Shown here piece after piece: positions 19,022 through 28,810 of a stretch of 64,000 nt of DNA (its first letter is position 1; each line of letters opens with the position of its first letter). The translations under genes and the position numbers were made by a program. Where the stretch lies: positions 558,001-622,000 of the forward strand of contig NZ_QWGG01000002.1 of NCBI RefSeq assembly GCF_003730195.1, written 5' to 3'. The notes beneath the pieces were generated by a model that did no database searches, was not told the origin of the DNA, and saw only the letters and a program-made list of their open reading frames with translations. This DNA comes from Halosimplex salinum (lineage in GTDB: Archaea > Halobacteriota > Halobacteria > Halobacteriales > Haloarculaceae).

Positions 19022-19039
19022 CGACTGTCAGGTCGAGTG

Positions 19040-20713
19040 ATGACGGGGTCCGACCCTGAAGCCTCCGCCCCGAGTATCGCCTCCTCCAGACGAACGCTCC
19101 TCCGCGCCGTCGCCGGGCTCACGCTGGCCGGCGGACTCGCGGGCTGTAACGACGGTACCGGCGGGTCGACCGACACGCTGACGCCCGGATCGGAAGGGGC
19201 CGAAACCACGACTCGAAATCCATCGCCGAGGGTGACGCAGACACTGACACAGACACCGACGCCGACGATGACGGCACCACCGACGGAGACGCCGACTCCC
19301 ACGCCAGCGGGGACGCCGACAGCCACTGCGACTGCCACGGCCACCGCGACGGCGACTGCGACAGTCACCGCGACGGCGACGCCCGCGGGCCGTGAGACGG
19401 CTCGCGAGTTCGTCGCCGAACTCCGTGGGGGCGAGTTCGACGCCGCCCACGCCCGCTTCTCCGCCGACCTCGCGCGGGAGATGCCCCGTTCGACGCTCGA
19501 ACGCTACTGGCTCGGGCTCACTGCCCAGCACGCGGCCGTCGAGTCGGTCGGGAGCGTCGAGACCGACACCCGCGACGGGTCCGAGACGTTCGTCGTCCCC
19601 CTCGACTGCGCACAGGGGTCTCAGCCCGTCGAGACGGTCGTCGACGGCGAGGGACAGATATCGGGCCTCTGGTTCCCCGGCGAGTACGAGTCGCCGGAGT
19701 ACGTCGACGAGTCGGCGTTCACCGAGCGGACGCTGACGCTCGAACCGGAGGGGTGTTCGCTCCCCGCGACGCTCTCCGTGCCCGCCGACAGTTCGGGGAC
19801 GTCGACTGCCACGGCGACCGCGACTGCTACGGAGGCCAGCGCCGCCGCCACCGCGACGGCGACCGACACGGCAACGGCGACCAGCGCCGACACCGACGCG
19901 GACGCCGTCCCCGGCGTCGTCCTCGTCCACGGCAGCGGCGCCCACGACCGCGACGAGACCATCGGGCCGAACGAGCCCTTCCGCGACCTCGCGCAGGGCC
20001 TCGCCAGTCGCGGCGTCGCGGTCCTGCGCTACGAGAAGCGCACTCGCGCCTGCGAGGTGCCCCGCGCCGAGTGGTCCATCGACGACATAATCGTCGACGA
20101 CGCGGTCCACGCGCTGGGCGTCCTCCGCGAACAGGAGGAAGTCGAACCCGACAGAACGGTCGTCGCGGGCCACAGCATCGGCGCGACGTGCGTCCCGCGC
20201 ATCGCCGAGCGCGACGGCGCAGTGGCCGGCGGCGCCCTCCTCTCCGGGAACGCCCGGCCGTTCACCGAGGTGTACCCCGAACAGGTGCGACACATCTTCG
20301 AGGTGCAGGGCGGCCTCTCGACCCGGGAGCAACAGCAACTCTCGGCGGTGGAGCGGCTGATGTCCGCCGTCGAGGACGGCTCCGTGGCGGACGACCGGCA
20401 GATCGGGCCGCTCCCCGGCATCTGGTGGAAGACCCTCTTCGAGTACGACCAGGTCGCGACGGCCAACCGCGTCGACGCGCCGCTCTTTCTCGCTCACGGC
20501 GGTCGGGACTTCCAGATCCCGATCGACCCGGCGCTGTCGGGCTGGCGGGAGGGCCTCGACGACCCCGACGTCCACCGTTTCGAGCGCTATCCCGATCTCT
20601 CGCACCTGTTCCAGCCCGGCACGACTCCCTCGCTGTCGACGGAGTACGCCTTCCCGGACAACGTCGCGCGCGAACTGGTCGCCGACCTGGCCGACTGGGT
20701 GACCGGGCTGTAG
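19040..20713 (+). CDS. Tat/lipobox-type exported alpha/beta hydrolase with Thr-Ala repeats
   Basis: 557 aa. The N-terminus carries a twin arginine (SSRRTLLRA), a hydrophobic stretch and lipobox LAGC, so export by Tat and lipid anchoring outside the cell are likely. A Thr/Pro and then Thr-Ala linker (TATATATATA) of about 80 residues follows. A DUF3887-like domain comes next (FVAELRGGEFDAAHARF). The hydrolase has VLVHGSGAHDRDE, nucleophile GHSIGA, and a late His in YPDLSHLF. A second Thr-Ala stretch (ATATATATEA) interrupts the protein right at the start of the hydrolase fold. A GTG at 19037 could also be the start. Confidence 0.85.
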   Translation: MTGSDPEASAPSIASSRRTLLRAVAGLTLAGGLAGCNDGTGGSTDTLTPGSEGAETTTRNPSPRVTQTLTQTPTPTMTAPPTETPTPTPAGTPTATATATATATATATVTATATPAGRETAREFVAELRGGEFDAAHARFSADLAREMPRSTLERYWLGLTAQHAAVESVGSVETDTRDGSETFVVPLDCAQGSQPVETVVDGEGQISGLWFPGEYESPEYVDESAFTERTLTLEPEGCSLPATLSVPADSSGTSTATATATATEASAAATATATDTATATSADTDADAVPGVVLVHGSGAHDRDETIGPNEPFRDLAQGLASRGVAVLRYEKRTRACEVPRAEWSIDDIIVDDAVHALGVLREQEEVEPDRTVVAGHSIGATCVPRIAERDGAVAGGALLSGNARPFTEVYPEQVRHIFEVQGGLSTREQQQLSAVERLMSAVEDGSVADDRQIGPLPGIWWKTLFEYDQVATANRVDAPLFLAHGGRDFQIPIDPALSGWREGLDDPDVHRFERYPDLSHLFQPGTTPSLSTEYAFPDNVARELVADLADWVTGL

Positions 20714-25506: not shown

Positions 25507-25597
25507 CTGTTACTCGATCGGTCGTCCTGACGTGGTTTAACTGTGGCGAGCGAGCGGGCGGTGGCGACGCGAACCGGTGACCGGCGGCGGCCCCCGG

Positions 25598-27139
25598 TCA
25601 GATCACGTTCACGTGACCGTCGGAGACGAACTCGCACTCCTCGCTCGGGTCGAACGTGATCTCGAGCTGGTGGGTCACGACCATCCCGCCGATGATCTTC
25701 GCGGCCTCCTCGGGGTCCATGTCGGGGTCGGCGCTGTTGACGTCCTGCGCGACGACGTAGTATCGCCACATCCCGAGTCGCGCGTCCTTTCGCCGGAAGT
25801 CGAACTCGCCCGTGTAGACGCCGTCGTCGGGCTTCTGGTCGGGGTCGATGCCGTCGTCCTGGAGCACGAACCGCTCGTACTCGCCGTTCGGACCGGCGAG
25901 GATACACTGGACGAACAGCTCGTCCCCGGTCACCTGGTTCCCGTCCTCGTCGAAGAACTCCGCCTCGACGACGAAGCGCTCTTGCTGGCCCGTGTCGACG
26001 ACGTCGGGCGCGCGGACCTCGTAGCGCGAGAGGACGTGCTGGTTCGTGTTGGTCTCGCTGACGCTGTGGGTGTACGTCCCGCCGGTCGTCTGGCGGGTGT
26101 ACGTCCACTTCACGTCGGCGGCGAACGGCCGACCGAGCGCGACGGGCTCCCCGTAGGAGATCGCGGCGTCGAGCCGCTCGCCCGTGGTCTGTTCGCCGGC
26201 GCCCGGGTCGGTGTTGTCCTGGCCGCGCCGGAACGGGTCCCGGTCGTCGGAAAGGACGGCAGCGGTCGCCGCCGCCGCCGCGGCCGCGACCAGGCCCGCC
26301 ACCAGGTAGCTACTGCTCCCGCCCGACGCGCTGACTCCACAGCAGTCTTCGTCCCCGTCTGCACCGCCGCCACCGCCGCCACCGCCGCCACCGACGATCA
26401 CGGTCCCGCCCTCCTGTGACGCGGCGATCGCGGCGGCGATCAGGAGGACGACCGCGATGATACACAGGACGATCTTCCACCAGGGGTCCTGGAACGGGAG
26501 GTCGCCGTACTTCCCGTCGTAGGGCGGCGTCGGCTCGACACCGATCGACAGCTCCTCGGGGAGGTACCCCGGCGGGCAGAACTCGAAGTCCGCCTCGTGA
26601 CCCTCGAACTCCTGCAGGTATTCGATCACGTCCGGTCGTCCGTCGACGCGGGTCTGCTCCGGTCTGTCCCTGTCCGGCGTCCGGCAACAGCGATCCCGTG
26701 GCTCGACCATGTCCGTGAACTGGACCTCCATGGTCCCTTCCGGCGTCTCCGCGCCGAACGTGAGCGTGTTCGGGTCGAAGTTCACCCGCGTGACGAATAT
26801 CTTCTCGATCATCCGGGTCCGATCGCCGCCGCTCTCGGCCACGAAGCTGACGTAGTGCACGCCGGGCGAGACGGCGCTGAAGTCGGCCTCCCAGGACACC
26901 TGTCGTGAGGCGCCACTCGAGAGCCCGGACACCTCGTGCGTCCGGGGCGACACGGTGAGCACCGGCGTCGAGGCTCCCTCGACGTACACGTTCACGCTGG
27001 TCGACGAGTTGCCGACGTTCCGCAGGTGGACGTTGATGTTCTGGGTCCCGATCGACGTCTCGAAGATGCCGTCAGGGAGCATGAGGCCGGTGATCTGTTC
27101 GGTCGCGAACGGTCGGTTGGGGATAGTGACGTGCGTCAT
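25598..27139 (-). CDS. Ig-like/membrane hairpin protein with choice-of-anchor-X-like end
   Basis: 513 aa, family not recognised. Residues 1-145 look like a beta sandwich (INVHLRNVGNSSTSVNVYVEG, CARDB-like). A Cys/Arg-rich segment has CC at 151-152. Hydrophobic helix 1 is at 221-241, followed by ten Gly in a row (250-259), CC at 266-267, and hydrophobic helix 2 at 278-296. Residues 320-513 carry LQDDGIDPD then DDGVYTGEF, like the choice-of-anchor X domain. No N-terminal signal peptide; the two helices would place both ends on the same membrane side. It starts in the stop of the 27136 gene (4-bp overlap), so the two proteins are coupled. Confidence 0.75.
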   Translation of the reverse strand: MTHVTIPNRPFATEQITGLMLPDGIFETSIGTQNINVHLRNVGNSSTSVNVYVEGASTPVLTVSPRTHEVSGLSSGASRQVSWEADFSAVSPGVHYVSFVAESGGDRTRMIEKIFVTRVNFDPNTLTFGAETPEGTMEVQFTDMVEPRDRCCRTPDRDRPEQTRVDGRPDVIEYLQEFEGHEADFEFCPPGYLPEELSIGVEPTPPYDGKYGDLPFQDPWWKIVLCIIAVVLLIAAAIAASQEGGTVIVGGGGGGGGGGADGDEDCCGVSASGGSSSYLVAGLVAAAAAAATAAVLSDDRDPFRRGQDNTDPGAGEQTTGERLDAAISYGEPVALGRPFAADVKWTYTRQTTGGTYTHSVSETNTNQHVLSRYEVRAPDVVDTGQQERFVVEAEFFDEDGNQVTGDELFVQCILAGPNGEYERFVLQDDGIDPDQKPDDGVYTGEFDFRRKDARLGMWRYYVVAQDVNSADPDMDPEEAAKIIGGMVVTHQLEITFDPSEECEFVSDGHVNVI

Positions 27140-27972
27140 CGGTTCGCCTCCGTGACGAGGACGGTCAGTCCGCCCAGCGGTCGGTCGCGGTCGGTGCGTC
27201 GGTCGCTCCGGAGCGTGACGTTCACGAGCGCGGCCTCGCCGTCGAGTCGCCCGACGAGCGAGAAGCCGGTCTGTCGCTCCGCGTCGAGTTCGAGGTCGCC
27301 GATCCGCTCCTCGGCGTCGACGTCGTCGAGGTCGGGACACGGCTCGTCCACGAACCCGAGGTCCTCGACGGCCCCCTCCTCGGGCAGTTCGAACTCGGGT
27401 CCGAACAGCGATTCGAGCCCCCGGACCGACTCGAAGTCGACCTGTTCGGCCCTCAGGCTGAACGTCTGGGGAACGCGTTCAGCGTTGTGGACCTCGAACG
27501 CGAACGAGAACCGGTACTCCATCGACTCCAGCGCCTGTACGATCGTGAGGTTCCGCTGTGCGACTTGCTTATCCGCCGGGACGTCGAAGGACGCACTCGG
27601 CCCCAGCGGGTCGAGCGTCTCGTGAAATGCCTCCGCTAGCAGGCACACGTGCCCTTCGTTGACGAACTGCGGCAGCCACTGTGTCAGACACAGCACCTCG
27701 GATGTCTCACCCGGATCTAGAGTGACGAACGACGTCCCGATCTGGGTCGCTGTCGTCCGGTCGAAGCCGACGGCCGGGTTCGCCCAGTAGAACCTGACGA
27801 CGGCGTTCTCCGCTCGCTCCGTCCCCTCGTTGTGTACTCGCGCCCAGACGTAACACGGTTCACCGACGACAGGCGTCCCGGGAGTCCCCTGCGGGTCGCC
27901 GCCCGGGACGGTCCAGATGTCGTGGCTCGCCCACCACGGACTTCCATCGTGTATCGACAGTTCTACCGGCAT
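27136..27972 (-). CDS. CARDB/Ig-like protein, first gene of a two-gene cassette
   Basis: 278 aa. The first half is a beta-sandwich with SPWWASHDIWTVPGGDP, then CYVWARVHNEGTERAENAVVR, FYWANPAVG and LDPGETSEVLCL, a pattern of CARDB-type adhesion or assembly domains. The second half (RFSFAFEVHNAERVPQTFSL) looks like another all-beta domain. Four Cys, no signal peptide, no membrane helix. The AT-rich promoter (ATTATATATTTG at about 27985-27996) differs from the GC-rich surroundings. It is coupled to the 513-aa membrane partner. Function unknown; it might coat or cap that partner. Confidence 0.72.
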   Translation of the reverse strand: MPVELSIHDGSPWWASHDIWTVPGGDPQGTPGTPVVGEPCYVWARVHNEGTERAENAVVRFYWANPAVGFDRTTATQIGTSFVTLDPGETSEVLCLTQWLPQFVNEGHVCLLAEAFHETLDPLGPSASFDVPADKQVAQRNLTIVQALESMEYRFSFAFEVHNAERVPQTFSLRAEQVDFESVRGLESLFGPEFELPEEGAVEDLGFVDEPCPDLDDVDAEERIGDLELDAERQTGFSLVGRLDGEAALVNVTLRSDRRTDRDRPLGGLTVLVTEANR

Positions 27973-28171
27973 ATGTGTATGGAATTATATATTTGAAAGA
28001 CAGTTAGTAACCACGTCGCTACCGGGCGCCGTCGCCGGGTAAGTCGGGCCTATCGACGCGGTTCGCTCCTGGGTCCGTCTCCACTCCACCTCGAATAGAT
28101 TCCCGCCGACGAGTTTGGCAACGCAAGCGTCTTATACAGGAACGGTCAGGCGCAACTAAGGGCGAACCGAC

Positions 28172-28810
28172 ATGGACCGAAGTCAGGCGGCCGACCCGGA
28201 CGACGCGCCGGAGGATCCGATCTGCCAGCGCGTGTTGAGCGACTCGGCGTACGACACCGTCCAGGTCGAACGCTTCTCTCACTTCAAACAGCCCGTGCCG
28301 CGGAAGCTCCTGATCCAGTGTGCGCTGATCGGCGCGCTGGCGCTCACGCTCCCGGTCTACGCGCTCTTCCCCGCGGACGCCGCCACGTATCTCCCGACCG
28401 TCGATCCGACGACGGCGTCCCCGACGATCATCCTGATGGGGCTGTTCGCGCTCGTCATCGAACTCGGGGCGGCGGCGCTCCTGCTCGGCGTCGTCCTCTA
28501 TCGAGTTCGCCACGAACCGCTCACCGAGGACCAGGCGATCAGCCTGTTCAACACCGAGACGTACGCGACCTACCTCGGGTTCGGGACGGGCGGGCTCGCG
28601 ACCGCCGTCATGCTCGCGCTGTTCGCGCTCGGCCTCGGCGGCGAGTCGACGCTCGGCGCGTACGTCCACGCGATGGACGGCGCGAACCCGTTCCGCGCGA
28701 GCGGACTCGGCGTCACGGTCGACGTGTTCGCGACTGTCGCGCTCGCCGGCGCGCTCGCCGTCTACGTCGCACGGGCCTACGCCGCCTCGCGCCTCGCGAC
28801 GCTGGAGTAG
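28172..28810 (+). CDS. 4TM membrane protein, unknown
   Basis: 212 aa. The first 55 residues are acidic and cytosolic (DPICQRVLSDSAYDTVQVERFSHFKQPVPRKLL). Four helices follow in two pairs, with the short cytosolic link VLYRVRHEPLTEDQAISLFNTETYATYLG between them. TATA-like CTTATACA lies at about 28131. It is on the opposite strand inside the split pdh locus, between E2 and the two-gene cassette. No family recognised. Confidence 0.72.
   Translation: MDRSQAADPDDAPEDPICQRVLSDSAYDTVQVERFSHFKQPVPRKLLIQCALIGALALTLPVYALFPADAATYLPTVDPTTASPTIILMGLFALVIELGAAALLLGVVLYRVRHEPLTEDQAISLFNTETYATYLGFGTGGLATAVMLALFALGLGGESTLGAYVHAMDGANPFRASGLGVTVDVFATVALAGALAVYVARAYAASRLATLE

Follow-up and report, generated by a model that had tools for sequence, protein, structure and literature searches.

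The described systems closest to the locus analysed here are VARTIG islands and certain antiphage operons. The VARTIG islands of Thermococcales are archaeal and laterally variable, and place a CARDB-type Ig protein ahead of membrane proteins (PMC8416519). The canu (caspase-nuclease) and nuclease-protease antiphage systems carry proteases in laterally acquired operons, and Ig-like domains occur in canu (PMC12799240). In the window, by which we mean the whole 64,000-nucleotide stretch of Halosimplex salinum DNA that was analysed, a gene for a soluble-looking Ig-like protein (P1) is followed by a gene for an Ig-bearing protein with two hydrophobic segments (P2), between E2 and lpd (E3) of the pyruvate-dehydrogenase cluster (Table 1). 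A preliminary description had presented the two genes as an undescribed cassette with a 4-bp overlap, and inspection bore this layout out. Both ORFs lie on the minus strand, P1 then P2, sharing the 4 bp ATGA. A longer P2 ORF from a GTG (580 aa) was rejected as unsupported by homologues, and the ATG at 27139 was taken as the start. Elsewhere in the window, positions 19037-20713 encode an alpha/beta-hydrolase-like protein that is predicted to be secreted and contains long low-complexity stretches of Thr, Ala and Pro.

Table 1. Features of the P1-P2 locus in the window, and loci carrying the pair or its relatives A and B (L numbers denote sequence records).
Feature	Position or record	Strand	Description
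P1 gene	27136..27972	-	278 aa, two Ig-like (E-set) beta-sandwich domains, without signal peptide or TM segment
P1 domain 1, CARDB-like Ig	27607..27972	-	residues 1-122; Pfam CARDB below cut-off, CARDB structures among Ig matches
P1 domain 2, second Ig-like sandwich	27145..27555	-	residues 140-276; AF2 strands
P2 gene	25598..27139	-	513 aa; start inside ATGA overlap with P1 stop
P2 N-terminal Ig-like domain	26705..27139	-	residues 1-145; CARDB 18.1 bits, E-set Ig folds
P2 hydrophobic segment 1	26414..26473	-	residues 223-242; directly 3' of conserved LP(F/Y)(Q/S)DPWWK motif
P2 loop between hydrophobic segments	26306..26413	-	ten Gly, acidic, invariant CC (266-267)
P2 hydrophobic segment 2	26246..26305	-	about residues 279-298; Ala-rich; then conserved DP(F/W)(R/W)RGQ motif
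P2 C-terminal beta region	25601..26191	-	residues 317-513; choice-of-anchor X motif DDG..D...DDGVYTG; AF2 strands, low to moderate confidence
P1 upstream region, putative promoter	27973..28010	-	76% A+T, TATA-like stretch
Interval holding insertion	25507..28115	.	lpd and upstream region of 212-aa gene directly adjoin in five congeners
212-aa membrane-protein gene	28172-28810	+	divergent from pair; native to locus, conserved between E2 and E3 in congeners
Full-length P2 with P1 upstream	Pontibacter L013, Saccharibacteria L014, Shewanella L015, Dyadobacter L016, Desmonostoc L017
Full-length P2 with P1 upstream	IMG/VR contig L064; eight Rugamonas-family genomes L089-L096
A and B tandem pairs	L018:7539-11134, L019:7527-11116 (Nitrosospira)		protease half on each
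A and B tandem pairs	L020:9638-13369 (Rugamonas), L054:8048-11740 (Methylocystis parvus plasmid pMpar-2)		protease half on each

P2 begins with an Ig domain, followed by a Cys-containing linker, the motif LPFQDPWWK, segment 1, a loop, segment 2, the motif DPFRRGQ and a C-terminal beta region. The features attributed to it beforehand (Ig head, two hydrophobic segments, ten glycines, CC pairs and a choice-of-anchor-X-like end) were all present. The mean Kyte-Doolittle hydropathy over 19 residues is 3.11 at residue 223 and 2.11 at residue 279, and the CC pairs stand at residues 151-152 and 266-267. The ten-Gly run occurs in the Halosimplex salinum copy only among the homologues, and so carries no weight. 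Common to the P2 homologues are the CC and, one exception aside, an acidic loop poor in K/R; K/R residues are few or absent in the loop, and both flanks carry them. Conserved cysteines were found in P1 as well as in P2. Hydropathy analysis revealed no signal peptide at the N-terminus of P1 or P2 in any copy, whether Gram-negative, cyanobacterial or archaeal, and the start residues of both proteins are conserved among homologues, in agreement with the earlier remark that neither protein has one.

The CARDB nature proposed for the pair was examined by fold and by sequence. The fold comparison of P1 domain 1 includes the CARDB structures 3idu and 2kl6 (Z 8.2 and 7.7, rmsd about 3 Å over about 90 residues), with which many other Ig folds tie, but the Pfam CARDB (PF07705) scores of 18.1 bits for P2 and 15.9 bits for P1 both fall below the curated cut-off of 22.7. 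Domain 2 of P1 resembles pilus-chaperone/MSP-type Ig folds in a generic way (Z 7-8), and the P2 N-terminal domain matches E-set Ig folds, with a top Z of 11.4 over 95 residues at 2.4 Å. The AF2 model of P1 consists of two Ig-like beta-sandwiches (mean pLDDT 70.6), and that of P2 is poor (55.9). Foldseek/VIA-align matches to transglutaminase, alpha2-macroglobulin, complement, GH2, HAP2/Fusexin domain III and pilus chaperones were regarded as generic Ig folds and were not read as function. A search of PDB sequences gave no match for P2 and an E of 0.015 at best for P1, no relation was detectable between the P1 and P2 profiles, and PHROGs yielded chance-level matches alone for P2 (E 0.29 and above). 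At the C-terminal end of P2, NCBIfam NF041940 (choice_anch_X) scored 26.2 bits against a cut-off of 25; the Pontibacter copy scored 26.3 bits, and the Desmonostoc copy 22.7, under the cut-off. Beyond this marginal motif no curated family describing the pair was found, and the cassette can still be called undescribed.

Proteins with a choice-of-anchor X motif are typically extracellular. Together with the CARDB-like domain type and the conserved cysteines of P1 and P2, the presence of this motif at the C-terminus of P2 would suit a pair that, as is usual for CARDB and choice-of-anchor X domains, serves adhesion or the matrix at the cell surface, and that leaves the cell without a classical signal peptide. 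Such a role is doubtful, however, since by hydropathy the signal peptide is missing from both proteins in every copy and dedicated export genes are absent beside the copies read.

Comparison with relatives of the host supported the claim that the cassette had been acquired into the pdh locus. In five congeners the site beside lpd is empty, and lpd adjoins the 212-aa gene and E2, from which we conclude that the pair was inserted at a pre-existing site. The location between E2 and E3 had been given correctly, but the native 212-aa gene sits there as well. Full-length P2 was detected in one of the 391 sampled Halobacteria, namely Halosimplex salinum, and the five other listed matches were short and weak. 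Because the intergenic DNA has diverged, the insertion ends and any target duplication cannot be placed exactly; no convincing target-site duplication or inverted repeat was seen at the ends. The AT-rich promoter, previously taken as a sign of acquisition, lost its weight, as an upstream region of this composition is ordinary for a haloarchaeal promoter. The GC3 values (0.92 for P1, 0.83 for P2) and codon correlations (0.97 and 0.91) match those of neighbouring genes, and the acidic excess of P2, +49 residues, is of the salt-in type, compared with +14 to +22 in bacterial copies. This fit to the host indicates a transfer old enough for amelioration rather than contamination. The genome does carry a contamination estimate of 4.6%, but an assembly artefact or bacterial contamination of the archaeal genome is hardly conceivable when the flanks are syntenic with five congeners and the genes resemble their neighbours in GC3, codon usage and salt-in acidity. 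Lateral acquisition of P1-P2 in Halosimplex salinum is therefore almost certain.

We then considered whether the two genes belong together. In each of the 15 P2 loci that were read on the upstream side, P1 lies immediately 5' of P2 on the same strand, at a spacing of -4 to +27 bp. One is the locus in the window, five come from bacteria belonging to four phyla, one is on a phage-like IMG/VR contig and eight are from genomes of Rugamonas' family; the homologues share 39-56% identity over their full length. The neighbourhood survey suggested beforehand thus found a pair that travels jointly, rather than homologues that always appear singly. Of 195 genomes from Rugamonas' family, about 12 had adjacent pairs, and among 92 sampled genomes of this family P1 occurred in exactly three, the same ones that hold P2. 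Pairwise identities of P1 and P2 correlate (r = 0.905, n = 21 pairs). No third gene stands constantly beside the pair in the loci read. Its neighbours differ among phyla, and the downstream genes are identical within the Rugamonas-family group, where the pair is therefore chromosomal and mostly inherited vertically. The median dN/dS in that group (0.20 for P1, 0.14 for P2) demonstrates purifying selection where it is measurable. These results make it very probable that P1 and P2 are an obligate pair acting as a complex.

The range of the pair takes in archaea, Patescibacteria, Bacteroidota, Proteobacteria, Cyanobacteria and a phage-like genome, undescribed by curated families. In both the P1 and the P2 tree the internal branches are unresolved save the Desmonostoc/phage split, but trees that place the archaeon together with Bacteroidota, Patescibacteria and Shewanella do not follow the species tree. 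Searches of P2 against plasmids and phages, and of P1 against plasmids, gave no match. Scans of sampled Bacteroidota, Cyanobacteria, Patescibacteria and Proteobacteria with the P2 or A1 profile added no full-length copies, a weak kind of absence because few candidates were scored per genome and the scan of Proteobacteria missed the Rugamonas-family group, whose copies came to light with the profile of B, a relative described below. That the pair moves widely and is under purifying selection where measured argues for a useful function without local partners.

Weak P2 matches in Nitrosospira and Rugamonas revealed a second arrangement, the tandem genes A (about 610-650 aa) and then B (about 580 aa), which is complete on a Methylocystis plasmid too, annotated there as 'hypothetical protein'. 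The N-terminal half of P2 aligns with A through hydrophobic segment 1 (hhalign E 4e-26, probability 99.7), and the C-terminal half, consisting of the second segment and the following region, aligns with B (E 3.4e-23, probability 99.5). Judged by these profile alignments, there can be little doubt that P2 is homologous half by half to A and B. The A protein shares the N-terminal Ig and the QDPWWK hydrophobic segment of P2, and B shares the second hydrophobic segment, the DPxR(R/W)GQ motif and the following beta region. Like P1-P2, A and B are tandem genes with no obvious signal peptide. Unlike P2, they carry the halves of a trypsin-like protease in place of the short loop, at the end of A and the beginning of B, and A has an extra N-terminal domain. 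No remnant of a protease was detected in P1 or P2, the latter being without GDSG and without a protease match, and no P1 homologue was found in the L018, L020 and L054 records.

In PHROG 20754 'protease' (324 positions), B matches positions 40-173 and A positions 223-317, and alignment to intact single-chain proteases confirmed the halves. In single-chain proteases of this type, such as that of Paenibacillus (L055:3983-4963), the His lies in the first half and the Asp and GDSG in the second, and the halves align to A and B; they differ from A/B in being one polypeptide without Ig or hydrophobic segments. Catalytic residues are retained in all four A/B pairs, with the His invariant on B and the Asp and the GDSG Ser invariant on A. 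That three separate lineages have kept these motifs speaks against decay. With A ahead of B, the gene order reverses the two protease halves, and an active enzyme could be rebuilt solely by both proteins jointly; we infer from the sequences that A and B would do so. On this idea, the catalytic triad of a trypsin-like protease would be shared out between a pair of Ig-bearing proteins and would work only after their assembly; A/B, if this is true, would be a natural split-enzyme sensor. We regard these split-protease relatives as the strongest new lead. In the literature searched, no split trypsin-like protease combined with Ig domains was described, and the NAL1-like protease literature gave nothing useful.

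Further protease-related genes were noted. Single-chain relatives of the split protease are the Paenibacillus gene cited above, which lies on plasmid pART37, and L088:475-2148, which has a long Lys/Glu-rich tail. In Nitrosospira sp. Nsp11 the C-terminal part of a subtilase (L073:3364-5715) matches P1 residues 36-129 (E 1.5e-6); here an Ig region and a protease are again combined with no obvious signal peptide but, unlike P1, in a single 783-aa chain with Peptidase_S8. The subtilase gene adjoins a gene for a 618-aa protein without a Pfam match.

The surroundings of several copies are mobile in character. The IMG/VR contig with the pair (L064) encodes a head-tail adaptor (PHROG 442, E 2e-28); terminase, portal, capsid-type and integrase genes were recognized on it by eye, and the pair lies on the strand opposite to the structural genes. 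Other genes on that non-structural strand of the contig (IMGVR_UViG_3300047160_036011; L064, L071, L072) encode a TPR protein, a protein of very large size whose LESR motif is planctomycete-like, and one of ATPase type that weakly matches mad3 of a defence model. The Pontibacter copy is flanked by a resolvase, a transposase gene of IS21 type was recognized by eye downstream of it, and Tni transposition genes are near the Methylocystis A/B copy. The phage-like contig, resolvase and transposase contexts fit a laterally mobile accessory gene pair.

The same contexts, and the sporadic spread over two domains of life, would also be expected of a lateral defence or superinfection-exclusion cassette, in which P1 senses an infection signal and the P2 hairpin disturbs the membrane; bacterial antiphage systems, moreover, include Ig-like domains and trypsin-like proteases (PMC12799240). 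PADLOC 2.0.0, however, found no match for P1, P2, A, B or nine of the ten neighbours scanned, with nothing up to E = 1 for the pair; the one neighbour with a weak defence match is on the phage-like contig. No defence island was seen in the loci, and in the Rugamonas-family group the pair is fixed in the chromosome with constant downstream genes, in which most defence cargo differs. We therefore consider a defence role unlikely.

We propose that the two genes form a laterally mobile unit whose products, P1 and P2, would be the subunits of a single complex. The hydrophobic hairpin of P2 would anchor the protein in the cytoplasmic membrane; the short acidic CC loop would lie on the far side, and the Ig regions, both of them together with bound soluble P1, on the cytoplasmic side. 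From the sequence, a membrane hairpin in P2 is probable. By hydropathy, and by the scarcity of K/R in the mostly acidic loop, both Ig regions would be cytoplasmic, the likelier topology though an unproven one, and the earlier idea of a hairpin holding both large domains on one side is upheld as a predicted topology. Against it, the positive-inside counts are small (1-2 K/R before TM1, 1-4 after TM2), and the conserved cysteines of P1 and P2, if they form disulfides, could point to an outside location. In A/B, cytoplasmic Ig regions would mean that the N-terminal protease half of B has to cross the membrane with no signal to direct it; the reverse topology shifts this problem to A. Because protease halves on one side need signal-less crossing of a large N-terminal domain, the segments are perhaps not simple TM helices; they might pack together, or enter the membrane only after assembly. 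These difficulties limit our commitment to a membrane-tethered, non-catalytic module with P1 as its soluble partner. That P1-P2 is such an interaction module, a sensor or a scaffold, has about an even chance of being right, and we give the explanation as a whole the same standing. P1-P2 would then be the protease-free counterpart of A/B, in which the meeting of A and B would assemble an active protease. More tentatively, there may exist a mobile family of membrane-tethered Ig pairs in which a split protease becomes active once the Ig partners join its halves, P1-P2 being a branch that lacks the protease but has kept the recognition part, and for which assembly alone would serve to signal or to block.

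An internal hydrophobic hairpin without a signal peptide might equally belong to cargo of a contractile injection or type VI-like system, the hairpin entering the target membrane, and the A-type locus of Nitrosospira sp. Nsp11 is near a large YD-repeat-type gene (by eye). This is very unlikely, given that the hosts include a 1.2-Mb Saccharibacteria genome and a haloarchaeon and that injection-system genes are absent from the loci read. The toxin-delivery role once suggested was not supported: neither a toxin domain nor a secretion-system neighbour was seen in those loci.

We treat VARTIG and canu as analogies to P1-P2, not as tested homologues. The canu and nuclease-protease systems have a nuclease effector and intact proteases, whereas P1-P2 has neither (PMC12799240). 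VARTIG proteins are large, mostly with predicted signal peptides, and are encoded in variable multi-gene islands (PMC8416519). A VARTIG island is recognized by a large arCOG07710-type protein at the 5' side and variable genes downstream; P1, in contrast, has 278 aa, and P2 is the constant partner in all the P2 loci read. Unlike VARTIG, the P1-P2 cassette has a fixed content of two genes and occurs in archaea and bacteria alike.
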